Origin: Warburgia ugandensis
Taxonomy: Eukaryota > Streptophyta > Magnoliopsida > Canellales > Canellaceae
Direction: 5' to 3'
Length of the DNA stretch: 64,000 nt
Assembly (NCBI GenBank): GCA_035236585.1
Contig: CP141132.1
Coordinates: 39,249,880-39,313,879 of the forward strand
The translations under genes were made by a program, and so were the position numbers. The notes beneath the pieces were generated by a model. The model was not told the DNA's origin, made no database searches, and saw only the letters and a list, made by a program, of their open reading frames with translations. This document shows positions 5,958-52,746 of the stretch, one piece after another (position 1 is the stretch's first letter; each line of letters opens with the position of its first letter).

Positions 5958-8561
5958 TGTTAAATATCCATTTGTGTATAAATTACCCTCATTTCACATT
6001 ATAATTTATATATTTTTATGGAATTATTTAAAAATTTATTTGAAAATATATCATAATTTTTTTTTATTATCAAACAATAATTTGGAGAATTTTTAGAGTA
6101 AGATGAAGATTCGAGGTAAGTATGTGCAAAATCACACGTTGTATAGTACTAATTAGAAATTTTTCTATATTTGATCAATCTTCCAGATCATCGACCAAGT
6201 TTATATTGAAATAGAAGTGAACTATCAATTCAAGATGAATTGGAAGATCCAGATTGAATCAAGGCAAAATGGCTCAATTTCTAACATTTTTTAATTACAT
6301 ATGGTTTAAGGATTCTAAGATTGGTGGCAAATTAAAGAAAATCAATTGTGAACAAGTGATCTAACTTTAAAAGGTCAAGATATCTCTAAAAAATGTATTG
6401 CAAAGTGTCATTTTCAGAATTATTGGTCATGGGTGTAAAGGTATCATCTTGGATTGAATTATATTCTATGAGAGATGAAAGATCAGATGGGTAAGATAGC
6501 ATTGAATAGACATTGATCGATAAATCTTAACCAATGGACAGCCTTGATCTAAAACATTCAAAAGATTTCTTTAGTATAATAAATTTGAGTATGGCCTACA
6601 ATATGAATGGTTTGGATGATCAACTAATTGCCTGAGCTTGCAAGATTGCCAACACAATGAGTCCTCAGTAGCTAACAGTCATTCTTGATCTTGGAAATGT
6701 GGGCTGCATAAAACTCATCTCAAAGAGAAGGAGACATTGAGAAATTGGAAGTTTCCTAAGTTAGGAAACCAAGCACGTTAGAAACTCAATTTGGTTTTGA
6801 ATTTCTTGGGGAGAAAGAGAAATTATATGAGAAAACTACCAAAAAAAGTGAAGAAAACTAACCTCTTATTCATATATAAGTATTAGATTGAAAAAGGGTT
6901 GAAAAAATATTCAAATTTTGGAGAAAAATAGAGCAAAAGGAAGAAGATCAATAGTGTGCACTGTTGATGGATCGGGGTATTTATTTGTGATTTTATGATT
7001 TGCTACTCGACAAAAATCTTCAAGGTTGATTTCATTAGATGGAAGATACTAAAGATAAGAAGACTCGTATTATTGTTATTTATTTATTTGCATTTAAGAA
7101 GGCATCAAACAAAGAGCTCAAAGTTGGAACCCTATCATTGTTTGTATGAATAGAAACTGTGTTTTACTTCCAACTACTACTATCACTCACCTAGTTTCCT
7201 TTTTCACTTTATATCTCTTTCAATTCATCTCTATTTTTTATGTTGAACTAATGGATCTTAAATGAAGATGAACAAGGAATCCAGAGTGACTATTATTTTT
7301 AGGATTAAGGTTTAAATTTGAACAGAAATTTTTCTAGTTTTTACACTACTAGTATCACTCACCTATTTATAAGGGGCAGAATACATTACTTCATTTCTTG
7401 TTACTCTTTTTAGAGCAATTACGTGAAAATTTGTGGTTATCCCTTAATAAGTGAAACATAAAGGATAACTATGATTGACCTCATAATTTAATGAATTTGG
7501 TGTTTTCAGTAATTTTTAATATTAAAGAAAAAAAATTTTAAAATTGTTTTGTTTATGATTTTACTTCTTTTTTGTATGATATATTCTTGGGCATACTTTA
7601 TGTTATTAAATTTCTATTTTGATTCATGTTTAATTTTTAGAAATTATTTTTCCTTATCAGTTAGAAAATTTATTTTCTAGTTTTTTGTTAATTTTTCACA
7701 ATTTTTAGAATAAATTTAGAAATCATGATAAGTTAGTTTTCTTTCTCCTATAATTGGATTGATCTTATTTTTAGGTTAGAAACATCATTTATAGAATTTT
7801 TTAATATTTTAATTGTCTTAGAAAATTAATTTTAGAAATTAAATTAATTTACAAAAGATAATTTCATCCTCAGTACAATTATTTAATTATGTGCTTTTAC
7901 TTTTCACAATAGATGCTAGGAATTGGTTTTTGATCCATTATACTTAGGTATTACATAGAATACTTTGATTTTAATAAATTATCTAAGTTTCTAAAGTTCA
8001 ATATTTTTATACTAATTTTTCAAAGAAAACTTTTTTTGAGTTGGTAATTATATTTTCAATTCAAATCTTGAGTTATAAAAGAAAATAATAAGTGTTTTTA
8101 CTAATTTAAAATAGGTGATCTTTAATCCTAGTAATATAAGTTTAGATTAAAAATTCATTCAAACTCATCCATTAAATTGGAAAATTATCATCTTTCTTTA
8201 ATTTTTCATTAGTTTTAAGATAATTAGTCCAGATCAACTCTGGTGTTTTAATTTCATACTATATCCTCCATATAGATTCAGCACTACATAATATTACAAC
8301 TCACTACCATGCACTTACAAGAAAGCAAAAAAAAAGTTTTCGCCAAGTGATCTTTAATACTAGTAATTCAAATTTAGATTAAAAATTCATTCAATCTCAT
8401 TCATTAAATAGAAAAACTATCACCTTTCTTTTATTTTTCATTAGTTTTATGATAATTAGTCTAAATAAACTTTAGTGCTTTAATTCTGTACTATATCCTC
8501 CTTGTGAATTTGATTATGTATAACATTAAAACTAACTACTGTGCACTTGCAAGAAAAATCA
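5958..8561 (+). mobile_element. Athila-like Ty3/Gypsy LTR
   Basis: Starts with TGTTAAATATCC, the diverged form of the family start TGATAAGTGTTCAA, right after the family's internal 3' end. It ends with GTGCACTTGCAAGAAAAATCA just before a primer-binding-site-like sequence. Length about 2.6 kb, similar to the LTR at 33986-36780. No open frame of note. The last ~230 bases are tandemly duplicated. It is old: similarity to other LTRs in the window is confined to the ends. Confidence 0.65.
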
Positions 8562-8583
8562 AACAAGTTTTTGGCATCGTTGA
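8112..8583 (+). repeat. ~230-bp tandem duplication of the LTR 3' end
   Basis: Two copies, about 8112-8342 and 8343-8583, share GTGATCTTTAAT, TTTAGATTAAAAATTCATTC, a CTATATCCTCC word and a GCACTTRCAAGAAA end followed by an AAGTTTT word. The copies differ at many positions, so the duplication is old. A third, separate copy of the same LTR end lies at 16216-16404. Confidence 0.85.
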
Positions 8584-9104: not shown

Positions 9105-10610
9105 TTGCTTAATATAGCTGGAATGATATAGGGACATGCATACAATTTATCTTTTAATATAGCTAGAATGTGAAATTGCTCTTTCTTATGTAAAATTAGA
9201 TATTTTGTTTATTTTTTACATTCATACCCTAGACTTTCAAAAGAGTAGAATTAAGCCAAATTAGTGGTAATTAAGTGATTTTTAAGACTAAAATATTAAA
9301 AATATAGAGATGTGTATACAATTTATCTTTTAATATAGTTGGAATGTAAAATTACTCTTTCATTATAAAAATAGATATTTTGTTCATTTTTGAATTTGTA
9401 CCCTAGACATTCAAAACACTAGAATTAAGCCAAATTAGTGATAATTATGTAATTTCTAAGACAAAAATATTCAAAATATAAGAATCCATTTAAAATTTAT
9501 CTTTTAATATAGTTGAAATGTGAAATTGCTCTCTCTTGTTTAAAATTAGATATTTTGTTCATTTTTGAATTTGTATCCTAGACTTTCAAAATAGTAGTAC
9601 TAAGCCAAATTAGTGATAATTAGGTTATTTCTAAGAAAATCTTTTACAATATAGGGACATGCATACAATTAATCTTTTAATTTAGCTAAAATGTGAAATT
9701 ACTCTTTCTTATGTAAAATTAGATATTATGTTTATTTTTTACATTCATACCTTATATTTTCAAAAGGGTAGAGTTAAGACAAATAAGTGATAATTAAGTG
9801 AATTCTAAGACTAAAATATTAAAAATATATGGAGGTGTATACAATTTATCTTTTCATATAGTTGGAATGTAAAATTGTTTTTTCTTTTATAAAATTAGAT
9901 ATTTTGTTCATTTTTGAATTTGTACCCTAGACATTCAAAATATTAGAATTAAGCCAGATTAGTGATAATTATGTAATTTCTAAGAAAAAAATATTCAAAA
10001 TATAAGAATACATTTAAAATTTATCTTCTAATATAGTCGGAATGTGAAATTTCTCTTTCTTGTTTAAAATTAGATATTTTGTTCAATTGTGCATTTGTAT
10101 CTAGACCTTCCAAATAGTAGAATTATTCCAAATTAGTGATAATCTAGTAATTTCTAAGACTACAATATTAAAAAATTGGGTATATGTATGCAATTTATCT
10201 TTTAGCATCATTGGCATGTGAAATTGCTCTTTCTCTTGCAAAATTAGTTATTTTGTATATTTTTCCTTTTTAATATGTACCTTCAAAATAGTAGAAATAA
10301 GCCAAATTAGTGAAATTAAGTGATTTATAAAACTAAAATATTCAAAATATGTGAATGTGAGTACAATTTATCTTTTAATATATTTAGAATGTGAAATTGC
10401 TTTTTTGTATAAAATTAGATATTTTGTGCATTTATTCATTTGTAGCCATGACCTTCAAAATAGTAAAATTACGTCAAATTAGTGATAATTAAGTGATTTT
10501 TAAGTCTAAAATATTCAAAATATAGGGATATATATGCACTTTATCTTTTAATATAGATGGAATACGAAATTACTCTTTCTTGTGTAAAATTAGATATTTT
10601 GTATATTTTT
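9105..10610. repeat. ~175-bp satellite array, left part
   Basis: Monomers recur every 172-176 bases; the anchor word CTTTTAATAT (or variant) lies at 9151, 9327, 9501, 9674, 9850, 10025, 10199, 10372 and 10545. Shared core words are GAATGTGAAATTGCTCTTTC, AAAATTAGATATTTTGT, AAGCCAAATTAGTGATAATT and GATTTCTAAGACTAAAATAT. Monomers are not equivalent: types can be told apart and come in the order A-B-C-A-B-C-D-E-F. The first two A-B-C triplets are themselves a ~523-bp duplication. The left edge is a cut monomer. Length and AT content are typical of plant nucleosome-sized satellites. Confidence 0.95.
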
Positions 10611-13100
10611 TGTGACGACCCGGGTTTCATATGATGCAAATTTCATAAAAAGGCGAGATCTCTTGCTTTAGAAATATGAAATGCATGAAAATCTTTTGTT
10701 TTGGAAAGCAATCTTTCATATAAAATCCCGAGTATCAAAACACATTTTCAAATCATTAGCCATGGCATAGTTTTAAATCAACTCTATTCCCAAGAAAGTG
10801 TTAGTCACAGCCCCAGCTACAGAGAGTAACTACAATTAAGTAACACATTAAAAGATAAGGTAGGGGTTTACTTACTTGTACTTAATTTGGATGTTCTCTG
10901 TCACAGGTGTATCCTGTCCTTGAGTGTGTACTTGTATCTGAAAAATATTAAGGATTGGGTGAGTATACATTATACTCAGTAGGAGTCTATCACTACTAGT
11001 TTTATAATGCATGCTATGTTTTAAACCATATGTTCTTTAAACCATGTGCATGTTTGGACACTCATGTTCAATATCGATATTAAAAGCCATTGTCAAAATA
11101 GAATATTGACGACTTAAAGAATCGCATAATCCAAGTCAAAAGTAACATATATATCATAAACATATACTATGATATGCATAAGATGCTCAACTGAATCCAA
11201 CTCATGGATCTATGGTCGACCATACTCATGTCATGCCATATGCATGCAAGTAAATCCTCAAAAACATAGGGCACACTATGCCCAGGACCTCAGCGCCGTG
11301 TGGTCCCCGGGTACCTAGGGACTCTCTGTCATAGCCTCCACGGGGCATATGACACTTCGACGGGTGTCGTGACACCTTCAGTGGTAGTCCTCATTTACCA
11401 CAGCAATCGAAGTGAGGACAAGCCTTTTTGGCATGGTACCCTTTCCACCTATAGTGGTAGAGGCTAGGAGGCCACCTCGAACTTCTCAGCATAGCACTCA
11501 CGAGCTTACTAGCCCAAATCATATACTATCAAGCAGGCAAGAACCTTTTTCTCAAAACATATCTATGCATGTAACACATGTCTTGGCAATATATGCGCAA
11601 TGTATTTTTCATATGCATGCTAAGTTCATTTATGAAATCAATTCATGCTAAACAAGTCATGTGCATAAGGATGTAACATAAGTTTATATGATATATGCAT
11701 AAAGATAGGACATGTAACATAAAAACTTAAAACATGCATTAGAAAAGCAACCATGACTCAAAACATGCATTCTCAAAGCATCATGGGTTCTTTTTAAAAG
11801 TCTAGTAGCGATAGGACACCTACCTCATTTGATCGTGCTAGTCCCCTTGTCCTCGTACGTTCCTGGACATGGTTTAGGGGAAAAAGGTTAGCTTGGCCTA
11901 TTTCTATAGGTTCTAGAATAGTTTACCTCACTACTTAGGCATTAAGGGTTCATTCCCATGCCTAAGGGCCTCCTAAGGTCCCTAACTAGGCCTTGGTATA
12001 ATTAGGTTTGCAAAGGTTTAGTGGCCCCGCTCCACTATCATGGTTTAAGGGTCATGCCAGCCTTGATAGGGGCTTGATTAGGTATTTTATGGTTCGGGTG
12101 TGTCCGCGTGGCGCCTCAATCGGATTCCTAGAACTCAAGTTATGGGTATTTTAGTGTTAAGAATACATAGAAGGCCCAAAATGGGCCCTGCGTCACCGCT
12201 CCCGGCATGCACCTGCATCCCGATCGAGCGGCGCACACCCCACAGGGCGTCTATCGACACACCGGGCCTCCGCCCTGTTCTCGTTTGCGAGCGCGTCCAC
12301 GAACGCACCTGTCGGTTTCCCTTTAACACACTGGGTGCGTTTTGGTTCTGTGGTGACCTGGGTGTCCTCGAGACGCCGTGGTTCGACCCTGTTGAACCAG
12401 AACGCCCCAGGCAGCTGCCCTGTGTCTGTTGTAGCTCCTTAGAGCCCTATTTTCCATGGTTTCTCATGCAAAAACTTAAGGACATTCAACCTAAGACTGA
12501 GGGGGAGATGGGTTTGGAGTGGTTTAAGGCGTACCTGGTTTGTGGTTGGGTATTTTTCACAGTTTCTCCTCTTGCCTGCAACTCCAAGACTAGTTTTTCC
12601 TAGGGTTTTGGGCTGCCATTGAAGGCACCCAAGAGCTCTATTTATAGAGCTTAAGGAAGGTTCTGGAGGGGGGTTTCCACCGCCATGGAATGGCGGTGGA
12701 GAAACCTCCAGAATGGCAGTGGTTTCCCCCCTGCACATCAACATTTTAGAATCTCAGTGATGTAATATGTTTGGGAAGAAGGGGGTGCTCATATCAAAAC
12801 GGGTCCCTGTTTTCTCAGGCCAATTCATTTTAAATTTAATTACAATTTTGCCCTTGAACTTCAAAGGGTCATAACTTGCTCATTTTAACTCTGTTTTGGG
12901 TGATTCTAGTCTTGTTGGATTCCTTTTTCTGAGATGCACCAAGGGTACCATTCTAAGGACCAAATTTTTGGGTCTAGTCAGGGTGAACAGTGAAATGACC
13001 ACAGGGTGAACAGTGAAATGACCAAAATACCCTTATTTGAAAAAGTGAACTTTTCATTACCAACATGGGATTTCAAGGTTACAAAAATGGAGTCATTACA
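10611..13100 (-). mobile_element. Tekay/Del-like chromovirus solo LTR inserted in the satellite
   Basis: Read on the minus strand it starts TGTAATGACTCC and ends CCCGGGTCGTCACA, the same termini as the LTRs at 43445-46133 and 49523-52228. Total 2490 bp. It is flanked by TTTTT at 10606-10610 and 13101-13105, a 5-bp target duplication, though T runs make this weaker. It shares with the other LTRs a palindromic TATA region, the GGGTGCCT...AATGGCAGCCC stretch and the GTGAGTATA...ACTCAG stretch near its 3' end. It carries no internal region, so it is a solo LTR left by recombination. It is clearly diverged from the 43-52 kb pair. Small open frames inside are chance. Confidence 0.92.
12633..12651 (-). 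promoter_or_regulatory. LTR TATA region in a palindrome
   Basis: The minus strand reads GCTCTATAAATAGAGCTC, a TATA box inside a near-perfect palindrome. The same block sits at 43858-43874 and 49898-49914 in the related LTRs, so it is conserved between copies. Confidence 0.7.
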
Positions 13101-13105
13101 TTTTT

Positions 13106-15177
13106 TGCATTTCTACCCTAGACTTTTGCAATAGAAAAATTAAGCCAAATTAGTGATAACAAAGTGATTTCTAAGACTAAAATATTCAAAATATAGGGAT
13201 GTGTATACAATTTATCTTTCAATATAGTTGGAATGTGAAATTGCTCTTTGTTGTGTAAAATTAGATATTTTGTACAATTTTTGCATTTGTACACAAGACT
13301 TTCAAAACAGAGAAATTAAGCCAAATTGGTGATAATTAAGCCATTTTTAAGACTAAATTATTCAAAATATAGGATGTGTATACAATTTTTCTTTCAATAT
13401 AGTTTGAATGTGAAAATACTTTCTTATGTAAAATTAGATATTTTGTGCATTTTAGCATTTTTTCCCCTAGACTTTTGAAATAGTATAATTAAGCCAAATT
13501 AGTCATAATTAAGTGATTTCTAAGACTATAATATCCAAAATATAGGGATATGTATACAATTTATCTTTTAATATAGTTAGAATGTAAAATTGCTCTTTCT
13601 TTTATAAAATTAGGTATTTTGTTCATTTTTGAATTTGTGCCCCAAACATTCGAAACATTAGAATTAAGCCAGATTGGTGATAATTATGTAATTTCTAAGA
13701 CAAAAATATTCAAAACATAAGAATAGATTTACAATTTAGCTTTTAATATAGTTAGAATGTGAAGTTACTCTTTCTTGTTTAAAAATAGATATTTTGTGCA
13801 TTTTTGCATTTGTACATGGACTTTCCAAATAGTAGAATTATTCCTAACTAGTGATAATTTAGTAATTTCTAAGACTAAAATATTAAAATTTTGGGGATAT
13901 GTATGCAATTTATCATTTAATATCATTAGAATGTGAAATTGCTCTTTCTCTTGCAAAATTAGTTATTTTGTATGTTTTTACTTTTGTGATGTGAACCTTC
14001 GAAACAGTAGAAATAAGCCAAATTAGTGAAATTAAGTGATTTCTAAAACTAAAATATTCAAAATATGTGGATGTGAATACATTTTATCTTTTAACACATT
14101 TGGAATGTGAAATTACTTTTTCTTATATAAAATTAGATATTTTGTGCATTTATTCATTTGTACCCATGCCTTCAAAATAGTAGACTTAAGCCAAATTAGT
14201 GATAATCAAGTGATTTCTAAGACAAACATTTCAAATATATGGATATATATGCAGTTTATCTTTTAATATAGATGGAATATGAAATTTCTCTTTCTTGTGT
14301 AAAATTAGATATTTTGCGCATTTTTGCATTTGTACTTTATACTTTTGAAATTGTAGAAGTAAGCCAAATTAGTGATAATTAAGTGATTTCTAAGACTAAA
14401 ATATTCAAAATATATGGATGTGTATACAATTGATCTTTCAATATAGTTGGAATGTGAAATTATTCTTTTTTGTGTAAAATTAGATATTTTGTACATTTTT
14501 AGCTTTTGTACGCAGGACTTTCGAAACAATAGAATTAAGCCAAATTGGTGATAATTAAGTCATTTTTAAGACAAAAATATTCAAAATATAGGATGTGTAT
14601 ACAATTTATATTTTAATACATTTTGAATGTGAAATTACTCTTTCTTATAAAAATTAGATATTTTGTGCATTTTTGCATTTCCCCCCTAGACTTTCAAAAT
14701 AGTATAATTAAGCCAAATTAGTCATAATTAAGTGATTTCTAAGACTATAATATTCAAAATATAGGGATTTGTATACAATATCTCTTTTAATACAGTTGCA
14801 ATGTAAAATTGCTCTTCCTTGTCTAAAATTAGATATTTTGTGCATTTTTGCATTTGTATCCTAGACTTTTAAAATAGTACAACTAAACCAAATTAGTGAT
14901 AATTAGGTGATTTCTAAGAAAAATATTTGAAATATAGGGACATGCATACAATTTATCTTTTAATATAGCTAGAATGTGAAATTGCTCTTTCTTGTGTAAA
15001 ATTAGATATTTTGTTCATTTTTTACATTCATACCCTAGGCTTTTAAAACAGTAGAATTTATTCAAATTAGTGATAATTTAGTAATTTTAGAGACTAAAAT
15101 ATTCAAAATTTAGGGATATTTGTATAATTTATCTTTTAATGTTGTTGGAATGTGAAATTGGTCTTTCTTTTGTAAAA
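13106..15177. repeat. ~175-bp satellite array, right part, with higher-order repeat
   Basis: Anchors at 13216, 13391, 13565, 13740, 13914, 14088, 14260, 14435, about 14609, 14784, 14957 and 15133. After removal of the solo LTR and one 5-bp duplication (2495 bases), the 10545-13216 gap becomes 176, one monomer. Monomer types continue F-G-H, then B-C-D-E-F-G-H again, then C-like and A-like units. Diagnostic words include GCAAAATTAGTTATTTTGT for D, CATTTATTCATTTGTA for E, CCAAATTGGTGATAATTAAG for G and AGTCATAATTAAGTG for H. B-to-B spacing is ~1220 bases, a 7-monomer higher-order unit. The array ends abruptly against Athila-like sequence. Confidence 0.95.
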
Positions 15178-16215
15178 TCTACATATACAAGAGATCTTAC
15201 TTTTTAAGTAGACTACAAATCTTAAAATCCACTTAAAATATGTTTTAACCTCAATCCTCACTAATAAACATACAATCACAAATGAAACTCTCAGAAAAAG
15301 GTAAAACATAACTCTCTTTAATATGTGAGTAGAATCAGTATGACCAAAATATCTGACATATACTAATGAAAGAATGGGAATTACTAAGGAACTATTTTTA
15401 TTAATCTCTTTAGAAAGGATGCCATCATCAAGAAATTTAGGAATACTACTACTCAATTTCTATATGTTCATATCCTCATCAAGACATTATTCCTCATAGA
15501 ATCTATATGTTTTCAACTAGGACAATATGTAGGCTTAGGATAGGGTTATGAAAAGAAAGGGTATATCGGATATTTAAAATTCTTCAAAAATAAGTTCAAG
15601 TCTTCTACTACAAAGTTGACACTTCTTCTTTATTTATAATAAAATGAACATTCTTTTTCCATTTTTTATTTTTTTTGTCAGAACTTTTCTTTTCATGATG
15701 TTCACTTTCACTCTTATATTACAACTAAAAAGTATTTCTTCATTTATCTATAACTTATTTCATGAAGAAAATAGGTAAGGGGTATTTTATATTGGGTTTA
15801 TATGGTAAATGTAATTTGATTTAAAAAAGAAATGACCTATATATAAAAAGGCTCAAAGGGGCTAATTAGGAAAAATAATAAGCTAAATATGGAAATGAAA
15901 GATTGGACTTATGAAAATCTACTTCTCACCATTGCATATGAACTATCTTAAAATATCTCAAAAGATTTTCAATATAGCTCAATTTTTAATTAAAATAGTT
16001 GTTTCTGCATAAATAAAGGAAAATAAATACAAAAAGACTAGAATTCTACACCCCCACCTCAGTGAAATATTGTCCTTAATGTTTAAAAAGTAGGATGATA
16101 ATAATGCATTGAGAATGAAATAAGTGGGAGATGTAAAAAAAAAGAAAAAAAAAAGGAAACTTATGAGAAACAATGGTATAGAAATATTACAGATGAAAAT
16201 GGTGTAGAACAACAA
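15178..16215 (-). mobile_element. Athila-like element: 3' non-coding internal region
   Basis: Similar to 25050-26450 and, more distantly, 57720-58960, all in the same orientation: shared words ATCTACATATA, AAATATGTTTTRACCT, GAAACTCTCAGA, TGTAGGCTTAGGATAGGGT and a C-rich run (G-rich on the coding strand) next to a TTGTCCTYAATGTTTAAAAAG word near 16047-16090. That G-rich tract after the integrase is a family hallmark. Fossil, no coding capacity. Confidence 0.75.
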
Positions 16216-16404
16216 ATCCATTCAATCTCATGTATTAACTTAGAAAATATCTTTTTAAAATTTTCATTAATCTTAGGATAATTAGTATGCTGAACTTTGG
16301 TGCTTTAATTTCATACTATATCCTTGTGGATTTAACCCTACGTAACATTACAACTAACTACTTTGCATTTGTAGAAAAACTCAAACAAGTTTTTGGCATA
16401 TAGA
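16216..16404 (+). mobile_element. Opposite-strand Athila-like LTR-end scrap
   Basis: ~190 bases matching the tandem LTR ends at 8112-8583: TTCAATCTCAT, GGTGCTTTAATTTCATACTA, ACATTACAACTAACTACT and AAACAAGTTTTTGGCAT. It is on the plus strand while the flanking element is on the minus strand. Confidence 0.75.
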
Positions 16405-41119: not shown

Positions 41120-41930
41120 AAGATTCGTATTGCCACATGGAATATGGGTACATTGACAGGTAAGAATTTGGAGTTAGTAGACACGATGAAACGTAGGAGA
41201 GTCAACATTGCTTGTATGTAAGAAACCAAGTGGAAAGGGCCTAAAGCTAGAGAAATCAATGGGTATAAATTGTGGTATATAGGAAAGGATAATAACAGAA
41301 ATGACGTAGGAATAATAGTGGATAAAGAATTAAAGGATAAAGTTGTAGACATTAAAAGAATTAGTGATAGAATTATAATAATAAAACTTGTTCTAGGAGA
41401 GCAGATCATAAATGTTATAAGTGCATATGCACCACAAGTAGGGTTAGAAGATATAATGAAGAGACAGTTTTGGAAAGATATGGAGAGTGTCATCCAAGAA
41501 ATTCCCAACACTGAGGGGATATTTATAAGAGTAGACTTAAATGGCCATATAGGAAAAGAAAAGGAAGGATATGATAGAATACACGGAGGGTATGGGATTG
41601 GTGAATGAAATGAAATGGGGGAAACAATCCTCGATTTTACTTTGTCATATAACCTAGCCATTGCAAATACACTCTTTAAGAAGAGGATGAACACTTAATA
41701 ACCTTTAAAAGTGGACTTCATAAAAGCCAAATAGACTTCTTTCTATTTAGGAATATTGAACGATCAATGTGTAAGGATTGTAAGGTGATATCTGGTGAGA
41801 GTTTAACCTCACAACGTAGGTTATTGGTCATGGATATCCATTCAAAAGATGGAGGAAAAGAAACAGACTTAATAAGCATCCAAAAACTAAATGGTGGAAC
41901 TTAGAAGGAGAGATAATAACCTCATTCAAA
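41120..41930 (+). pseudogene. LINE endonuclease (exonuclease-endonuclease-phosphatase fold) domain, broken
   Basis: The reading begins KIRIATWNMGTLTGK, the N-terminal TWN block of LINE endonucleases that nick target DNA. It continues with ETKW (metal-binding glutamate block), INVISAYAPQVG and VDLNGHIG (the D-x-N catalytic block, GDFNGH in relatives). An in-frame TAA lies at 41219-41221 and a TGA at 41606-41608. Past about 41690 the match moves to another frame, with HLITFKSGLHKSQIDFFL, the closing QIDF block. The longest clean piece is 41270-41608 (112 residues). No start codon is needed to explain the fragment; the original start must be upstream of 41120. Confidence 0.9.
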
Positions 41931-41936
41931 AATAAG

Positions 41937-42713
41937 TTGATGGTAGAAGGAAATTGGAACTATGAAACAGAAATAAATACCATGTGGACTAATATGGTTG
42001 AGTCCATTAAGAAAGTGGCAAAAGATATCTTAGGGGTATCTAAAGGTAAAAGGCTATTAGTAAAGGAAACATGGTGGTGGAGTGAAATAGTGCAAAAAGT
42101 TATTAAAGAAAAATGTATGTGTTTTAAAGCCTCGCAGAAGACTAGAAATAATGAAAACTAAGAACAATATAAGAATGCTAAAAAGGTTGCTAAGAGAATA
42201 GTAAGTGAGGCTAAACTTAAGGCATATGATGAGCTATATAATAGACTAGGAACAAGGGAAGGTGAGAAAGATGTGTTTAAAATTGCAAGAGCGAGAGAAC
42301 AGAAGGGTAAGGACTTAGATCATGTTAGGTGCATTAGAAGTGATGATCAAAGGGTGTTAGTCAAAGATAATGAGATTAAACAAAGGTGGGAGACATACTT
42401 TAAAAAATTGTTAAATTACAATGGCTCTGAGAATATAGGGACTGAAAATACTATAAATCTAAATAACACTGGATATTATAGATATGAACATAGGATTAGA
42501 ATACCTGAAGTGAAAGAGGCCTTGAAAAAGATGAAATCAGGAAAGGCCATGGGGCCCGATGGTATACCAATAGAGGTTTGTAAGCATATGGTAGATATTG
42601 GGGTAGTTTTGCTGACCAAGTTGTTTAACAAGATTATAAAATCAAAGAAAATGCCTGATGAGTGGAGGAAAAGCTCTATTGTACCAATTTATAAGAATAA
42701 AGGAAGCAGATAG
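41937..42713 (+). pseudogene. LINE linker and start of reverse transcriptase, broken
   Basis: 41937-42161 (74 residues) corresponds to the spacer between endonuclease and RT, with KETWWWSEIVQKVIKEK. A stop ends it at 42159-42161. 42273-42713 (146 residues) enters RT with ALKKMKSGKAMGPDGIPIEV (GPDGIP block) and ends with MPDEWRKSSIVPIYKNKG before a TAG. The two pieces together keep the order expected of an RTE protein; only a short gap and stops separate them. Confidence 0.9.
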
Positions 42714-42828
42714 AGCTACACTAATTATCGAGGGATCAAAATTATGAGCCACACTATGAAACTTTTTGAAAGATTGATTGAGAAGAGGTTATGGCATGAG
42801 ACAAGTGTAGGAGAATCTATTTGGTTTT

Positions 42829-43444
42829 ATGCCTAGGAGCTCTACCATGGAAGCTATTTTCTTGCTAAGACAGCTGGTAGAGAAATATAGGGAGAGAAGA
42901 AAAGACCTCCACATGGTCTTTATTGACTTAGAAAAAGCTTATGATAGAGTCCCTAAAGAGTTAATATGGAGGGTGTTGGGCAATAAGGGGGTATCACGGG
43001 GGTATATAGACATAATTAAAGATATGTATGAGGGAGCAGTAACAAATGTTAAGACCGCTAGTCGTTAGACCAGTGATTTTCCTGTCACTATAGGATTGCA
43101 CCAAGGATCGACATTGAGTCCATACCTTTTCATGTTGGTTATGGACGAGTTAACAAAACATTTGCATGAAGAGATTCCTTAGTGCATGATATTTCCAGAT
43201 GATAGTCTTAATTGGTGAGACAAGGGATGGTGTAAACACAAAGATAGAGTTATGGAGAGAAGCATTAGAATCTAAAGGATTTAAAATCAGCAGAACTAAG
43301 AGAGAATATATGGAATGCAATTTTAGCAAGAAGAGCAAGAGTGGAACACCAGTCAAGATTGATAACCAAGAAGTTCTTGTAAAAGACCACTTTCGGTACT
43401 TATGATCAGTGATTCATGAGAGTGGAGAAATTGGGAGGGAGGTT
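42829..43444 (+). pseudogene. LINE reverse transcriptase core, broken
   Basis: 42829-43068 reads [20 protein letters not shown] and [20 protein letters not shown], the RT block with the first catalytic aspartate. After a TAG at 43066-43068 the same frame continues with IGLHQGSTLSPYLF and, at 43192-43203, FPDD in place of the catalytic FADD/YADD. A further TAG lies at 43180-43182. 43199-43405 (68 residues) overlaps in another frame with an IGETRDGVN start. The core therefore carries stops, a frame change and a proline next to the catalytic pair, and cannot be functional. Confidence 0.9.
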
Positions 43445-43857
43445 TGTAATGACCCCAATTTTTGTAATATTAAAAGCCCATAAAAAGTTCAGTTTTAAAG
43501 ATAAGGGCATTTAGGTCATTTCACTAGTCGCCTTGACTAAACCCAGGAATTTGGTCCTAAAATTAGTGCCATTAGATGCATCTCAGAAAAAGGAATCCAA
43601 CGAGACCAAAATCACCCAAAACGGAGTTAAAATGAGCAAGATATGGCCCTTTGAAGTTCAGGGGCAAAACTGTAAATTTCACAAAACGACTTAACTTGAA
43701 AAAACACAGGTGCCCATTTTGATACGGGCACCCCATCGTCTTCAACCTCCTAGAGGTTTCTGGAACGGCAGTGTTTCAAGGAGAAACCACCGCCCTTCTA
43801 AAGGATTCCCCACCACCATTCAAAGGCGGTTAGAAACCCTCCAAAACCCTCTTTAAA

Positions 43858-43874
43858 AGCTCTATAAATAGAGC
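43858..43874 (+). promoter_or_regulatory. LTR TATA region in a palindrome
   Basis: GCTCTATAAATAGAGCT. Conserved in the partner LTR at 49898-49914 and in the solo LTR at 12633-12651. Likely LTR promoter core; transcription start not determinable from sequence. Confidence 0.75.
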
Positions 43875-45473
43875 TCTTGGGTGCCTCTAATGGCAGCCCA
43901 AAACATGGGAGAAAATCCGTTGAGGAGCAGCGACCTAGAGGGGAAAATGTGGAGAGAAAACCACCCACGAAGCAGGTACGCACAAAAAAAACCCCAAACC
44001 CATCTCCACCATAGTCCCAAGAACGATTTCCCTAGGTTTTTTCATGAAAAACCATGGAGAATAGGCCTCCAGGAGAGCCACAAAGACCCCTAGGACGTCC
44101 CCAGGCCGCACTGGTTCGACAGGGTCGAACCAGGGTGACCTGAGGATGACCCAGGTCACTAACAGGCGGGACGATCCAATAGGACCGTCCCACGTCGATG
44201 CAGGTCGTCGCCGTTTGAAAAAAGATGCGCCTGCTGAGGCGCGCGCCGCAGACGCGTAGCACACTAGCGAAGTGTCTTTTTTTGGTTATTTGAGAATGTT
44301 GGGCGCACGTCGCAGACGCGCAGCGCCCTAGCATTCCTCCTTTTTTGTCTTTAAGACTCTATGTACATACAGAATTAAAATGCTTATAACTTGAGATCTA
44401 GAGCTCCGATTGAGGTGCCGCAAAAGGCGTTGTGTCCATATCGACGACACGGATACATCAAAACCATAAAATCTCTGATGAAGGCCCAATAAAAGGTGGG
44501 AATTACCCTTAGAATAGGATGGTGGCGCGTGACCACTAGAACTTTGGAAAACTGAGAATACCAAGGCCAAATTAGGACCTTGGGACACCCATAGGCATAG
44601 GGATGGACCCCTAATGCCTAAGTAATGAGACCCAACTACTCTAAACCCATCAAAGATAGGTTAAACTAACCTTGAGTCCCCAAACCATGTTCAGGAGCAT
44701 ATGAGGACAAGAGGATTAATGCGACCTAGTCAGGTAGGTGCTCTATCACTACTAGATTCTTTTAAAAGAACTATTGTTATTCTGAGAATATATGTTTTGG
44801 ATATATGACTTGATTTGCATGAATTAATTCAGCATTCATGATAAATGATTTGTACATAGCCATGTTTGAAATGATTGCATATACATTATGCACAGATATG
44901 TGTTGCAAACAAGTGCATGCATTGCATGATTTAAGTACTTGCAAAGATTGAATGTCCTTGAGGGTTGCCGAAAGACGCTGTAGTGCCGAGAGCCGGGCAG
45001 TTGTGAGGGACCCAAAAGAGGACAAGTTTTAACAAAAGGTTTTGACTTATCTTATGTGATTTGGGCAAGTAAGCCCGTGGGTGCTATGCCGAGGGGTCTG
45101 GGTTGGCCACCCGGCCTCTACCACTAATAGGTGGATGGGTACCACGCCCAAAAAGAGGCAAGTCCCTACGTCGACTGCATGTGGTACAGGGGGCTACCAC
45201 TGGTGTCACGGCACTGGGTCGGCGTGTCATAGGCCCCGTCGAGGCTATGACCATGTGTCCTCAGGTACCCGGGGACCACACGGCGAGGAGGCCGTGGGCA
45301 TAGTGGACCCTATGGTTTGATGTGCGTTGCATATAGCATGATATGAGGTTGGTCGACCATACCAAACTAGAGATCCATGAGTTGGACTCAATGAGGCATC
45401 TATTGCATATCATGATGTCATCATATATATGATACTTTCACTTTTGGATTATGTGATCTTTTAAGTTATAAAA

Positions 45474-45607
45474 ATTTCAGTTGATTATGGATTCTTATAC
45501 TGATGTTGAACTCGTGTATTCAAACATACGCATATTTTGAATTTCAGTTGACTATGGATTCTTATACTGATATTGAACTCGAGTATTCAAACATACGCAT
45601 GTTTTGA
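45474..45607 (+). repeat. 67-bp tandem duplication in LTR (also 51571-51704)
   Basis: Two units starting ATTTCAGTTGA and ending in an ACATACGCAT.TTTTGA word. Present in both LTRs of the element but only as a single, diverged unit in the solo LTR, so it arose in the lineage of this element. Confidence 0.9.
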
Positions 45608-46133
45608 ATGAGCATATGATTTTGAAACATCTCATGCATTTATAAAACTAGTAGTGATAGGCCCTACTGAGTATATTATATACTCACCCAATCCTCAACA
45701 TTTTTCAGATATCAGTAAGCACTCAAGGACAGGATATGCCCGTATATATATATCATGGTTCGGGACAACTCCACTCCCAAAGAGGACATCTATGTTAGTG
45801 CTATGAGCAAGTGAATCCAAAAGGAAACAAATACACATGTAAGTAAACTCTCAACCCTTTGGACATGTGTTTGTACTTAGTTACAGTTGGGCTGTGCATT
45901 GTGACTGGAAAGACCTGGGGAAAAACAATTATGATTTTTGCAGTTTTTCAAAAACTACCTTAGTTGTTGTGAAAGCAAATGACACTCGGGGTTTTCAAAA
46001 ATGAGTTTAGAAATAAAAGGTTTTCCACTGCATTGCATGGTTTTTATAAAATGGTTTTCAAATAGGGATGCATCCCGCATTAGGAAAATAGACATTGCAT
46101 TTAAAAATGCATGAGAAAACCCGGGTCGTCACA

Positions 46134-46149
46134 ATTGGTATCAGAGCCC
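46134..46149 (+). promoter_or_regulatory. Primer binding site (tRNA-iMet type)
   Basis: ATTGGTATCAGAGCCC directly follows the LTR end. TGGTATCAGAGCC is the standard primer site of plant chromoviruses and Copia elements. Confidence 0.93.
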
Positions 46150-49100
46150 AGGTTTTATCCTTTCACAGCCAGTCCAGCATGTCCAAGGGTCATGAACAAT
46201 AGAGAAAATCAAGAATAAGTAGTATAAAAGGAGTAGTAGAGATGACTACTTCTATTTGAGGATTATAATATTAATGCTCAAGGCATTTCACCATAAACAC
46301 ATAGGTGAAAAAGGAGATAGTCCTAGCAAATACTTAGATATTTGATTGATTAAATCCTATCAAAATCATGAGAAATAAGGATTGTTGTGCAGTGGTGCAA
46401 AGATGAAATCTCATATAAGGATCAGATTATGATAAGAATGAATGAATGAAGATGATTAATGGACTTGTTAATAGATAGTGTTGACCTGCAATAAAGTAAT
46501 CTTATCAAGGGTGAGGAAATCAAAGAACCTAGATGGCTATCTTACCATCATAAAGAATACCAGTATATGAGTACACTATCACAAGGGATATGATATGAGT
46601 ATGATAAGAGATATAAAAGAAAGACTTTGAGGAGATTTTGATGATAATAGGGATAAGCATACAAGATGATACTAAGGGGAAACTGTGACTTGTACTAGAT
46701 CACAAAGGTATGAAGCTTGAAAGATTTAGCTCAATTTTGGATACCTTAATTGAAGTCTGATGAAGAGTAAAGTGCTATCGAATAATAACTACTTGAGTAT
46801 TATGGAACAAATCCAGAGATGCATACAAGTGACATATTATGTGATAGGGAAATGAATTCAACTGAGTGATCAAAAGATTTTGATGATAATACTAAGGATG
46901 ATAATAGATCGATCCTTACATGAACTTGTATAAGAAGTATAACACGATCAAAACATCAATGCAATTATTAAGACATTGTATGAATTTTATTGAGCCTATA
47001 GGCAATTGAGGATTTCAATGATCTTAAGACAGTTTAGAATTTCTGAGAAGCATTCAGTTTATCATATATGAATAGATGAAGTATCAAATATATGCAACAA
47101 CGCATATAGAGACATTGATCCAAGTAGACCAAATGGATATTGAAGAAAAGAGAGAAAGAGATAGAGATGTGACCATAAGTATTCGATGAATATTGAATAA
47201 TCAAAAGAAGAAGATCATGACTCTATGAAGATACATACATCTCGAATCCTATAGGAGGGAAGATCAAACAAATGCAAAGGAATAATAGTAGGTGAGTTGA
47301 TGATCTTATTGAAAAAGAGTATAAAAGAGAGAAAGCATATGGGGATTAAGATTTTGAGTAAAAGTATCGAATTTCAAGAGATTATGCTACAAGAAAGTTT
47401 CGACAAGGAATAGTAACCAACTAGAAGTTAAAATTCTACAAATGGTTTGATATCAATTAGATTCTTATCAGATCCATTAGCTTATGGGGAGCACCAATGG
47501 ATATAATCCACAAAAAGAAAATTTTGGTGATATCTCACCTTGCCACTACATGAGTAAATAAAGTCATATTGAAAAAGGAATTAGGCCAGGACAGTGACTT
47601 GTCCTCAGCAAGAAGGGTACCATCAAGGATCAAATTGAGGTCTCGCCATCATATATTGGAAGACCAAATATCTTAAGACCATCATTGAGTGTTGTTGACT
47701 AAATAAAGGCATCCCACCCTAATTAATCAGGTATGTTAATATCTATGAGTTAGTAGTAGTAGTTATATACTTAGAAAGATGTTATAAGTCTTTAGACCTG
47801 AATACTTGATAGGCTAAGTCATTTGAGGGTATAAGGCCAGTTGATTAGGCCACATCATGAAGTTGATTAGACCATATCATGGAGGAGCTACAAGTACAAT
47901 AAATACAGTAACAACTGAGATAGGAGCAAAAATAAGAAGTGATCTAAACCAAGGTGAAAGGTTTTTCAAACCTTAGTGGCTACCATGACAAGGTAAAGAA
48001 ATTACTTTAGGTCTGAAAACTACTACAGACTTGGATTGAAAGAAAGATAAGTACCGATCACTCTAGAGGCCCTTGAGCTTATAACGCATCTGGGAAGAGA
48101 TCAATAAGTAATCGAATAAAGTCTTTCTATGTCTAAGGAAATGTTTATGCTCATCTGAGTCTTGTTGAACTTGTTGGGTTAACAACTTCAGTACAATTTG
48201 ATATAATTGCTATTGGGGGAGAAGTATGGCTATGAGATGGCACTTGAAAGATAAAATAAGGGGGCACTTGAAAGATAAAAGTTGGGGAATTGAGAAAATC
48301 ACTACTTATGATGATACCTCCTGACAATACAAACTGCATGGTTGATGATAAAGCCTTAATAAAAGATTGGGCAATATATTGACATAAGGAATGAAAAGAG
48401 AAAAGTTGAGGAGGCTAGCACACTATAAGGTGAAGATGTGATGTTACTTGCCTTTAGACAAAAAGTTAGTTGTTATAAGCATATACCAAGTACGAAAAAT
48501 TAATTGAAGGAATTTCCTAAGGACTAACCCTACTGGATTGAGTATAGAACTTTTGGATTGAAAAAGTTACTAAGAAAATCATCAAGCAAAGAAAGGACAA
48601 AGAGGATGATGACAAAGGATTCAACCATGACCTAGTAAGGGTATACGGTGATGAATAAGAGACTCTTTGCTTTGCATAAATAGGAACATTATTAACACTC
48701 CTAATAACAAGTTGATGTGAATAGTGAGATAGGCCTCTAGAAGAGAACAATGGACCATGATATATTTGACATGAGTATGCATAAACTCTTCAAGAAGAAA
48801 AAGCATTTGATGACTTCAGCATCTATGAAACTTGATGAACAGTTTGAATGTCCTAATCGTAATATGAGGTAGTATTAGTGATGGAAGATGGTACTAATTG
48901 GCTTTCATGATTTCATTTTGAATATAACCTTGAGTCACATATGGAAAACAACAGACAGTTGAAATTCGAAGTTAATCAAGGGTTTCGCTATATAACACAT
49001 GATACCATATCAGTTATTGAAGTATCTTGGAGACAAGGGCAAGAAGCAAAGTTAGACACAATAGAAAGAAGGTAACTTTTTGGACTTGTGGATAATAAAA

Positions 49101-49505
49101 GAGATCACTAGATGAAAAAGGATTATCCTATGATATTCAAAATAGGAGAAATAAGATAATATGATCTTGAAAGAAGTATATGCATGAGCAAAGAAGCATG
49201 ATCTTACGAGGAGACTATCTTATACATGATAAGATAAGTATAGGAATCTAAGGACTTCAAGATAGATGAAGTACCGCTAGGAAACAGTATTGATAAATTG
49301 ACACGTACGAGAGTATGGCACTGCATCAGAGTACGCAGCGAAAACAGGCCCTTATGGGTGAGGCCTTATAGGAGGAACAATGGAAATAATAAATTGAGGA
49401 TAAACCTAGAAATTGCTTCCTAAAGGGAAATGCATTTACCAAGAAATCATCTGAGAGACAAATACCTGGAAGATGATAATTTATGGAATTTCGAGGACGA
49501 AATTC
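46150..49505 (+). mobile_element. Non-coding interior of the LARD-like element
   Basis: Purine-rich on the plus strand with many GATGA and AGAAAG words, and no open frame that resembles gag or pol. Words such as ATCAAGTAG and GAAGATCAT recur loosely. The 49440-49505 part keeps the conserved TTCGAGGACGAAATTCT end. It may be a replacement of the coding region or extreme decay; near-identical LTRs argue against decay. Confidence 0.8.
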
Positions 49506-49522
49506 TTTTAAGGGGGTAATAA
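49506..49522 (+). promoter_or_regulatory. Polypurine tract
   Basis: TTTTAAGGGGGTAATAA directly before the 3' LTR, the plus-strand priming site of Ty3/Gypsy elements. Confidence 0.85.
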
Positions 49523-52228
49523 TGTAATGACCCCAATTTTTGCAATATTAAAAGCCCATAAAAAGTTCAGTTTTAAAGATAAGGGCATTTTGGTCATTTC
49601 ACTAGAGCCATTAGATGCATCTCGGAAAAAGGAATCCAACGAGACCAAAATCACCCAAAACGGAGTTAAAATGAGCAAGATATGGCCCTTTGAAGTTCAG
49701 GGGCAAAACTATAAATTTCACAAAACGACTTAGCTTGAAAAAACACAGGTGCCCGTTTTGATACGGGCACCCCATCGTCTTCAACCTCCTAGAGGTTTCT
49801 GGAATGGCGTTGTTTTAAGGAGAAACCACCGCCATTCTAGAGGATTCCCCACCACCATTCAAAGGCGGTTAGAAACCCTCCAGCACCCTCTTTAAAAGCT
49901 CTATAAATAGAGTTCTTGGGTGCCTCTAATGGCAGCCCAAAACATGGGAGAAAACCCGTTGAGGAGCAACGACCTAGAGGGGAAAACGTGGAGAGAAAAC
50001 CACCCACGAAGCAGGTACGCACAAAAAAAAACCCCAAACCCATCTCCACCATAGTCCCAGGAATGATTTCCCTAGGTTTTTTCATGAAAAACCATGGAGA
50101 ATAGGCCTCCAGGAGAGCCACAAAGACCCTTGGGATGTCCCTAGGCAGCACTGGTTCGACAGGGTTGAACCAGGGTGACCTGAGGATGACCCAGGTCACT
50201 AACAGGCGGGACGATCCAATAGGACCGTCCCACGTCGATGCAGGTCGATGCCGTTTGAAAAAAACCAAACGGACGCGCCCGCTAAAGAGAAGGACGTGCG
50301 GAGTTGTAGAGCGCGTCTGCAGATGCGCCCGCTGAGGCGCACGCCGCAGACATGGAACGCACTAGCGAAGCGTCATTTTTTGGTTATTTGAGAATGCTGG
50401 GCGCACGTCGTAGATGCGCAGCGCCCTAGCATTCCTCCTTTTTGGTCTTTAAGACTCTATGTACATACAAAATTAAAATGCTTATAACTTGAGATCTAAA
50501 GCTCCGATTGAGCCGCCGCAAAAGGCGTTGTGTCCGTATCGACGACACGGACACATCCAAACTATAAAATCTCTAATCAAGGCCCAATAAAAGGTGGGCA
50601 TGACCCTTAGAATAGGATGGTGGCGCGTGACCATTAGAACTTTGGAAAACTGAGAATACCAAGGCCAAATTAGGACCTTGGGACACCCATAGGCATAGGG
50701 ATGGACCCCTAATGCCTAAGTAATGAGATCCAACTGCTCTAAACCCATCAAAGATAGGTTAACTAACCTTGAGTCCCCAAATCATGTTCAGGAGCTTACG
50801 AGGACAAGAGGATTAACGCGACCTAGTCAGGTAGGTGCTCTATCACTACTAGATTCTTTTAAAAGAACTATTGTTATTCTGAGAACATATGTTTTGGATA
50901 TATGACTTGATTTGCATGAATTAATTCAGCATTCATGATAAATGATTTGTACATAGCCATGTTTGAAATGATTGCATATACATTATGCACAGATATGTGT
51001 TGCAAACAAGTGCATGCATTGCATGATTTAAGTACTTGCAAAGATTGAATGTCCTTGAGGGTTGCCAAAAGACGCTGGAGTGCCGAGGGCCAGGCAGTTG
51101 TGAGGGACCCAAAAGAGGACAAGTTTTAACAAAAGGTTTTGACTCATCTTATGTGATTTGGGCAAGTAAGCCCGTGGGTGCTATGCCGAGGGGTCTGGAT
51201 AGGCCACCCGGCCTCTACCACTAATAGGTGGATGGGTACCACGCCCAAAAAGAGGCAAGTCCCTACGTCGACTGCATGTGGTATAGGGGGCTACCACTGG
51301 TGTCACGGCACTGGGTCGGCGTGTCATAGGCCCCATGGAGGCTATGACCATGTGTCCTCAGGTACCCGGGGACCACACGGCGAGGAGGCCGTGGGCATAG
51401 TGGACCCTATGGTTTGATGTGCATTGCATATAGCATGATATGAGGTTGGTCGACCATACCAAACTAGAGATCCATGAGTTGGACTCCATGAGGCATCTAT
51501 TGCCTATCATGATGTCATCATACATATGATACTTTCACTTTTGGATTATGTGATCTTTTAAGTTATAAGAATTTCAGTTGATTATGGATTCTTATACTGA
51601 TGTTGAACTCGAGTATTCAAACATACGCATATTTTGAATTTCAGTTGACTATGGATTCTTATACTGATATTGAACTCGAATATTCAAACATACGCATGTT
51701 TTGAATGAGCATATGATTTTGAAACATCTCATGCATTTATAAAACTAGTAGTGATAGGCCCTACTGAGTATATTATATACTCACCCAATCCTCAACATTT
51801 TTCAGATATCAGTAAGCACTCAAGGACAGGATACGCCCGTATATATATCATGGTTCGGGACAACTCCACTCCCAAAGAGGACATCTATGTTAGTGCTATG
51901 AGCAAGTGAATCCAAAAGGAAACAAATACACATGTAAGTAAACTCTCAACCCTTTGGACATGTGTTTGTACTTAGTTACAGTTGGGCTGTGCATTGTGAC
52001 TGGAAAGACCTGGGGAAAAACAATTATGATTTCTGCAGTTTTTCAAAAACTACCTTAATTGTTGTGAAAGCAAATGACACTCGGGGTTTTCAAAAATGAG
52101 TTTAGAAATAAAAGGTTTTCCACTGCATTGCATGGTTTTTATAAAATAGTTTTCAAATAGGGATGCATCCCGCCTTAGGAAAATAGACATTGCATTTAAA
52201 AATGCATGAGAAAACCCGGGTCGTCACA
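49523..52228 (+). mobile_element. 3' LTR of the LARD-like element
   Basis: Near-identical to 43445-46133 with matching termini, TATA region (49898-49914) and 67-bp duplication (51571-51704). The GC-rich block at about 50200-50425 is longer than in the 5' copy. It is followed immediately by the second AGGTT target copy and then LINE sequence. Confidence 0.95.
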
Positions 52229-52746
52229 AGGTTACCCAGAGAATCTAAGAGGGTTGGAACAAATGGAGAAGTGTATTCAGAGTTTTGTATGATTGGCGAG
52301 TGCCCCTCAAACTAGAAGAAAATTTTTATAGGATGGACATAAGGGCAGCCATGCTTTATGGATCAAAATGTTGGGTAGTTAAGGAATATCATGCTCATAG
52401 GATGAGCATTGCAAAAATGAGGATGTTGAGATGGATGAGTGGTAAGACAAGAAAGGATAAAATTAGGAATGAAATTTTTAGAGGAAATCTAGGGGTAGCA
52501 CCAATAGGTAACAAGATGAGGGAGATTAGACTTAGATTATTTAGACATATCCAAAGGATACTGAAAATGGCACTGGCTAGAAGGAGTGAGGCAATGCAAG
52601 TAGAAGATTTTAAAAGGACAAGGGGAAGGCCCAAAAGAACGTGGATAGAAGTGGCGAGGAAAGATTTAAAAACTTTAGGACTGAATGAAGCCATGGTACT
52701 TAATAGAGAGGAATGGAGGAATAAGATTCATGTGGCCGACCCCTAA
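52229..52746 (+). pseudogene. LINE C-terminal domain
   Basis: 52285-52746 (153 residues) reads AMLYGSKCWVVKEYHAHRMS, MRMLRWMSGKTRKDKIRNE, IGNKMREIRLRLF and GRPKRTWIEVARKDLKTLGL, ending NKIHVADP. This is the standard C-terminus of plant RTE-type LINE proteins (LYGAECW, RMLRWM, GRPKKTW, IHVADP). The C-terminal part is clean; one stop (TAA) lies shortly after the junction, before 52285. The first residues after the AGGTT join continue the frame left at 43444. Confidence 0.92.

Follow-up and report, generated by a model that had tools for sequence, protein, structure and literature searches.

Primate alpha satellite forms higher-order repeat (HOR) arrays that are flanked by older layers, and the CEN178 satellite of Arabidopsis is arranged mostly in short local HORs; the birth of a new HOR and the displacement of an old one are usually deduced from end states. 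The satellite family of Warburgia ugandensis described here resembles alpha satellite in its AT-rich monomers of ~171-175 bp, in having older diverged layers beside young ones, and in that the monomers of its young arrays are ~20-24% diverged on average within one unit while the units are 97-99% alike, a likeness of organisation and not of compared sequence. It differs from alpha satellite in that the assembled young arrays span tens of kb and in that one unit on C4 contains an inverted block. With CEN178 it shares monomer length, head-to-tail arrays and local HORs, whereas it stands apart in its regular units, which hold 8 to 17 monomers.

For plant centromere satellites (CentBd/CentBs of Brachypodium, PCEN of Papaver and the satellites of Salicaceae), passages of three reports describe HORs, layers and retroelement invasion and, among them, the mapping of CENH3 in Brachypodium (PMC10910784, PMC11406182, PMC12046899). 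Because layered expansion and plant HORs are already published in those passages, the kind of organisation reported here is known. The W. ugandensis family shares with these systems satellite arrays, HORs, layers and retroelement invasion, the likeness being drawn at that level rather than between monomers; it is unlike them, as far as the same passages extend, in that successive units on C7 can be matched to one another by monomer type, with intermediates between them, and in being known from sequence alone.

The satellite array and its monomer order

The window, the whole 64,000-nucleotide stretch that was analysed, spans positions 39,249,880-39,313,879 of C7 (CP141132.1; 82.8 Mb) in an assembly of 14 contigs and 1.12 Gb, and its array lies mid-chromosome, within a 2-Mb stretch (37.9-39.9 Mb) rich in such arrays. 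TRF reports a period of 174-175 at window positions 9126-10610 and 13102-15186, and decomposition without the intervening 10611-13101 yields 21 monomers, namely one 108-base partial and 20 whole monomers of 171-180 bp, ~3.6 kb in total, all on one strand, head-to-tail, of nucleosome length and with a mean identity of ~81%. Typing gives, on the + strand, a partial D followed by I-H-D-I-H-F-E-K in the left part (9126..10610) and A-C-B(/I)-H-F-E-K-A-C-B-D-G in the right part (13102..15186); the typing of both parts was repeated with the window excluded from clustering. An earlier note on this DNA had counted about 21 monomers at a spacing of 172-176 bases over 9105-15177: the number stands, with whole-monomer lengths of 171-180 bp, while the array runs on to about 15186 and the first 21 bases (9105-9125) are marginal. 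The suggestion that it might be the edge of a larger array fails within the window, where a profile of the satellite found no further copy elsewhere in the 64 kb, so that the array is an isolated island and not the border of a continuous one. The monomer had not been recognised, and a search of literature text with six of its 15-18-mers, a scope outside which repeat libraries lie, likewise returned no description of the family; Rfam gave no match to the window. A 225-232-bp tandem pair lies left of the array (8115-8571), with a 77-78% relative on the right (16214-16399).

Monomers seven positions apart are on average 85.8% identical (n=13), and the other 14 of the lags 1-15 tested give 79.5-82.4%. 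The signal is carried by a single run of seven consecutive pairs, each of them 88-91% identical against a background of ~80%, in which 9911-13625 is matched to 13626-14844; when the order of the 20 monomers was shuffled 10,000 times, seven successive pairs all at ≥88% never arose (0 of 10,000), and 8 of the shuffles reached the best-lag mean. Both copies of this seven-monomer block read H-F-E-K-A-C-B on the + strand, the first (9911..13625) with an LTR-like insert inside it and the second (13626..14844) 1,219 bp long. Upstream, at 9126..10085 (+), pair identities and typing identify a duplicated triplet of ~523 bp, D-I-H, which is the 10-mer order described below without G; within it, monomer 1 matches monomer 4 at 89% identity and monomer 2 matches monomer 5 at 94%. 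The order of seven types reported earlier to occur twice at a ~1220-base offset (B-C-D-E-F-G-H in the letters of that time) and the duplicated triplet before it (A-B-C) are thereby borne out, and position-specific monomer clusters are found both in the typing and in the lag-7 run. With only two occurrences, 9-12% diverged from each other, the 7-mer is a duplicated block and not a homogenised higher-order array; its pair identities of 88-91% lie below a unit homogenisation of >95%.

Four other C7 arrays (37.904, 38.23, 38.26 and 39.894-39.908 Mb), clustered with the window excluded, contain 11 types with at least four members. The top successors on the 37.904 and 39.894 Mb arrays close ten types into one cycle, D-G-I-H-F-E-K-A-C-B, whose letters are taken from a typing that included the window, the window-free clustering having had other letters. 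The window reads D-I-H-D-I-H-F-E-K-A-C-B-H-F-E-K-A-C-B-D-G and obeys the cycle in 16 of 20 steps, as well as which none of 20,000 shuffles performed (mean 2.0, best 10), and its 7-mer is the cycle minus D-G-I. Since the 10-type cycle emerges with the window left out, the 7-mer is rejected as the base unit; what remains of the earlier interpretation is a higher-order satellite of nucleosome-length monomers, with a 10-monomer order in place of the 7-mer as the full account. With C7:39.904 Mb the window shares a collinear run of eight consecutive monomers (91% identity), and with C7:37.904 Mb one of six (90%). When the best match that each of the 20 monomers has in six other arrays is set against its best within the window, the outside one is better for 13 (3 ties, 4 worse), a comparison in which the ~11 times larger outside set favours outside best matches. 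The 7-mer appears to be a deletion derivative of a 10-monomer order that is also found in other C7 arrays. At the D-G-I deletion join, a monomer at 13450..13625 (+), compared half by half with the type consensuses, has B as its nearest type over the first half (96%) and I over the second (95%, vs 93% for B); it may, with modest support, be a B/I hybrid, the consensuses in that comparison including window monomers. Where the types are divided depends on the cut-off used in clustering: at the looser value of 0.16, types I and A are no longer separate. The profile that cut monomers in all arrays was built from window monomers, and the 10-mer consensuses used in trees and typing include them; the window-free clustering and its consensuses are the only ones that exclude them.

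Between types K and A the array is interrupted by a solo-LTR-like insert of 2,491 bp (TGTGACG...ATTACA; +), which its flanks place at 10611..13101, correcting the 10611-13105 given earlier. The TTTTT present on both sides is low-complexity and therefore weak as a target-site duplication. Three other loci match the insert over query positions 1-2490, and its LTR family has at least 79 matches, widely dispersed on 10 chromosomes (C1, C2, C3, C5-C11), with 39 of 13,592 first-look candidates scored. A centromere-confined retroelement is not supported as the source of the insert, the LTR matches listed reaching far outside the satellite places. Around the array, inspection of the ORFs by eye revealed the remains of retroelements; a Pfam search of three window ORFs (42162-42713 among them) gave no match. 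A LINE-like element, also recognised by eye, extends over 41222-52746 with ORFs at 41222-42713 and 52249-52746; an LTR element interrupts it, the repeats of which (43445-46134 and 49523-52229) are 93.3% alike.

Trimer, 8-mer and 4-mer arrays on C7

C7 carries trimer arrays (~515 bp) at 38.23, 38.26 and 39.894 Mb, whose order, A-C-B, is a run of three neighbouring 10-mer types. By mean identity to the trimer types, an 8-mer reads A-C-B-A-C-B-A-B, its position 7 being weakly type A (84.1 vs 82.2% for C), and a 4-mer at C7:39.608 Mb is nearest to trimer types A-C-B-A. The 8-mer array occupies ~24 kb at C7:38.139-38.163 Mb, its continuity between sampled pieces being that of regularly spaced matches; this length is short for a centromere core, and the assembly may have collapsed the array. 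Its left edge is abrupt at about 38,139,001, and on its right side sequence at 96-100% of the consensus gives way to copies at 90-94% and then to mostly trimer types (C7:38.1627-38.167 Mb). A young core grading into older diverged layers is seen on this right side only; symmetric layers around one core were considered and are not supported by the array positions.

In the consensus tree, A, C and B each have a single clade that unites the trimer type with the 8-mer positions (UFBoot 75, 97 and 99), and the 10-mer type is sister to each of those clades (UFBoot 76, 100 and 99). Position 3 of the 8-mer, and positions 4 and 7, fall outside the trimer consensus of their type, so that descent from these very trimer arrays is unsupported there. 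In the monomer trees, the trimer-array monomers of types A (29/29) and C (25/25) lie in clades free of 10-mer-array monomers, and for both types the clade of all 10-mer-array monomers encloses the trimer-array ones; the outgroup of the type-A tree is not monophyletic, with 5 of 9 sequences in the rooting clade and 2 inside the trimer clade. The type-B tree does not resolve, 9 of its 11 10-mer-array monomers lying inside the trimer clade. Within-type identity is similar in the 10-mer arrays (86.4-90.9%) and the trimer arrays (87.7-88.8%), and identity therefore gives no order for the two layers. The trees suggest that the 10-mer came before the trimer, an order supported for types A and C and left unresolved by type B.

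Intermediates are present on C7 as well. The stretch between K and D-G at 39.894-39.908 Mb holds an expanded A-C-B run that shows irregularities, and trimer sequence contains an 8-mer-like run at 39.748 Mb and another, in inverted orientation, at 38.814 Mb. The 8-mer-like runs match at 88% over the full 1,374 bases, other registers giving 79-82%; as 2 of 1,191 first-look candidates were scored, the 8-mer-run matches number at least 15.

Homogenised units and chromosomal distribution

Six sampled arrays are built of multi-monomer units that are 97.2-99.4% alike between adjacent copies, gaps not counted: 1,808 bp or 11 monomers at C4:19.09 Mb (98.1-99.3%, 4 comparisons); 2,905 bp at C4:19.062 Mb (98.8-99.0%, 2 comparisons); 2,716 bp or 16 monomers at C3:54.634 Mb (97.2-97.5%, 2 comparisons); 1,374 bp or 8 monomers at C7:38.146 Mb (97.2-99.0%, 6 comparisons); 2,261 bp at C10:34.558 Mb (99.25%, 1 comparison); and 683 bp or 4 monomers at C7:39.608 Mb (98.97 and 99.41%, 2 comparisons). 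At C10:32.75-32.79 Mb, the spacing of matches points to another unit, of ~5.06 kb. The start of C4 carries a 6-mer of ~1,057 bp at lower identity, and the arrays sampled at C1, C2, C3:22.1, C13 and C14 show weak periodicity at most; in these, in the C4 start and in the other C7 arrays sampled, homogenisation stays at or below 95%. The window array belongs with this diverged kind, and the layers on C7 differ in homogeneity. The 2,905-bp unit (C4:19,062,000-19,071,999) consists of 8 forward and then 9 reverse monomer matches, an HOR with an inverted block. One 31-mer variant recurs at ~2.9-kb spacing (or double) in C4:19.06-19.09 and 75.13-75.15 Mb; because C4 also starts inside satellite, mis-scaffolding of C4 is possible.

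A genome search for a 31-base core of the monomer, allowing up to 3 mismatches, gives 4,017 occurrences, and 0 for the reversed control; a second stretch of 39 bases occurs 1,031 times, with 0 for the control. Among the matches listed (100 of 4,017 for the 31-base core), the family is on at least 13 of the 14 chromosomes, with none on C8, at the following places in Mb: C1 50.3; C2 51.2-52.3; C3 21.7-24.1 and 54.5-54.7; C4 0-0.2, 16.7, 19.06-19.11, 75.1-75.9 and 84.0; C5 67.5-68.2; C6 47.2 and 80.9 (one match each); C7 37.9-39.9; C9 47.6; C10 32.7-32.8, 34.5-34.6 and 36.2; C11 34.3-34.4 and 41.1; C12 38.6-38.7; C13 13.4-14.5; and C14 20.9-21.0. Eight of the 13 chromosomes have one stretch of ~2 Mb or less, which on four of them (C1, C2, C7 and C12) lies at 0.4-0.6 of chromosome length, and five (C3, C4, C6, C10 and C11) have more than one place, all among the matches listed. 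This distribution and the array pattern indicate that the family is probably (peri)centromeric. A further difference from alpha satellite concerns the CENP-B box, which has 0 matches in nine family loci of 10 kb located outside the window. On C7, the satellite matches at 37.898-37.918 Mb recur at 37.959-37.979 Mb with an offset of ~61.2-61.5 kb, which suggests a segmental duplication.

Proposed serial replacement and alternative readings

We consider it likely that the window array is a remnant left on C7 by an old HOR generation, in a satellite family that is probably (peri)centromeric and has undergone serial replacement there. The C7 family would once have been a 10-monomer HOR, D-G-I-H-F-E-K-A-C-B, of which the three consecutive monomers A-C-B would later have been amplified into the ~515-bp trimer HOR; runs of the trimer array would then have seeded at least two young HORs, the 8-mer (1,374 bp) and the 4-mer (683 bp). 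The old layer, no longer homogenised, would have lost monomers, as in the window 7-mer without D-G-I, and would have been split by a retroelement. Serial replacement is the most parsimonious scheme, its general step being the amplification of a short run of an existing array, with the older array diverging and being broken by insertions. We read the window as the oldest layer visible on C7, and infer unequal exchange as the mechanism; any kinetochore function of the family would be putative. More tentatively, and as a reading somewhat less likely than not, the centromere arrays of this plant may in general evolve by serial replacement of alpha-satellite-like HORs, each HOR seeded by consecutive monomers of its predecessor, C7 keeping three generations (10-mer, trimer and 8-mer/4-mer) with intermediates, the window the oldest among them, and C4 carrying a unit with an inverted block. 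Because a parent order, the sub-run amplified from it, a single run resembling a template and the homogenised end product all lie within 2 Mb of C7, the succession is testable base by base, and a plant whose multi-kb HORs hold 8 to 17 monomers would permit a comparison of plant with primate centromere evolution.

A heterochromatic satellite lacking a kinetochore role, with HORs arising from unequal exchange alone in pericentromeric or interstitial blocks like those of Salicaceae, is an unlikely explanation, though one with some weight. Passages of PMC12046899 describe non-centromeric Salicaceae arrays that have HORs and no CENH3 peak, so that a centromeric pattern is not proof, and the presence of the family at more than one place on 5 of 13 chromosomes would fit such blocks; against this, 8 of the 13 have a single stretch of ~2 Mb or less, near mid-chromosome in 4 of the 8 (all these counts being among the matches listed), and young HORs beside older layers are the pattern of active centromere arrays in other species.

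That the window array is itself part of the active C7 centromere is very improbable. Its position inside 37.9-39.9 Mb, between two young C7 HORs, would suit an active array, but it measures only ~3.6 kb, with ~81% monomer identity and block copies at 88-91%, and has no other copy in 64 kb, while C7 holds homogenised arrays of the same family. Plain local duplication, with the 7-mer a one-off in a small array that has no wider order, deserves still less credence: the block does occur only twice in the window, yet the same type order recurs in arrays at distances of 0.6 and 1.35 Mb, and 0 of 20,000 shuffles kept to it as well as the window does, and the distant arrays would have to have been transposed from the window, although the collinear copies are 9-10% diverged. 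A subtelomeric satellite moved inward by fusion is scarcely credible, for although contig C4 begins with satellite, BLAST at 1e-5 detected none in the first 3 kb of each of the other 13 contigs or in 10 kb at the C7 end, and the 31-mer variant at both C4:19.06 and 75.13 Mb, with its ~2.9-kb spacing, may reflect mis-scaffolding of C4.

Eight of the 14 contig starts, and the C7 end, carry CCACAGA/CCCTGAA-like repeats, and three starts carry TTTTAAT-like ones; each piece, in those 11 starts and the C7 end, has 0-3 copies of TTTAGGG or its complement. Passages of PMC9414165, in which the words CCACAGA/CCCTGAA themselves do not appear, describe nanopore miscalling of telomeres in A. thaliana too, and the odd contig-end repeats of W. 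ugandensis are probably telomeres miscalled in the same way.
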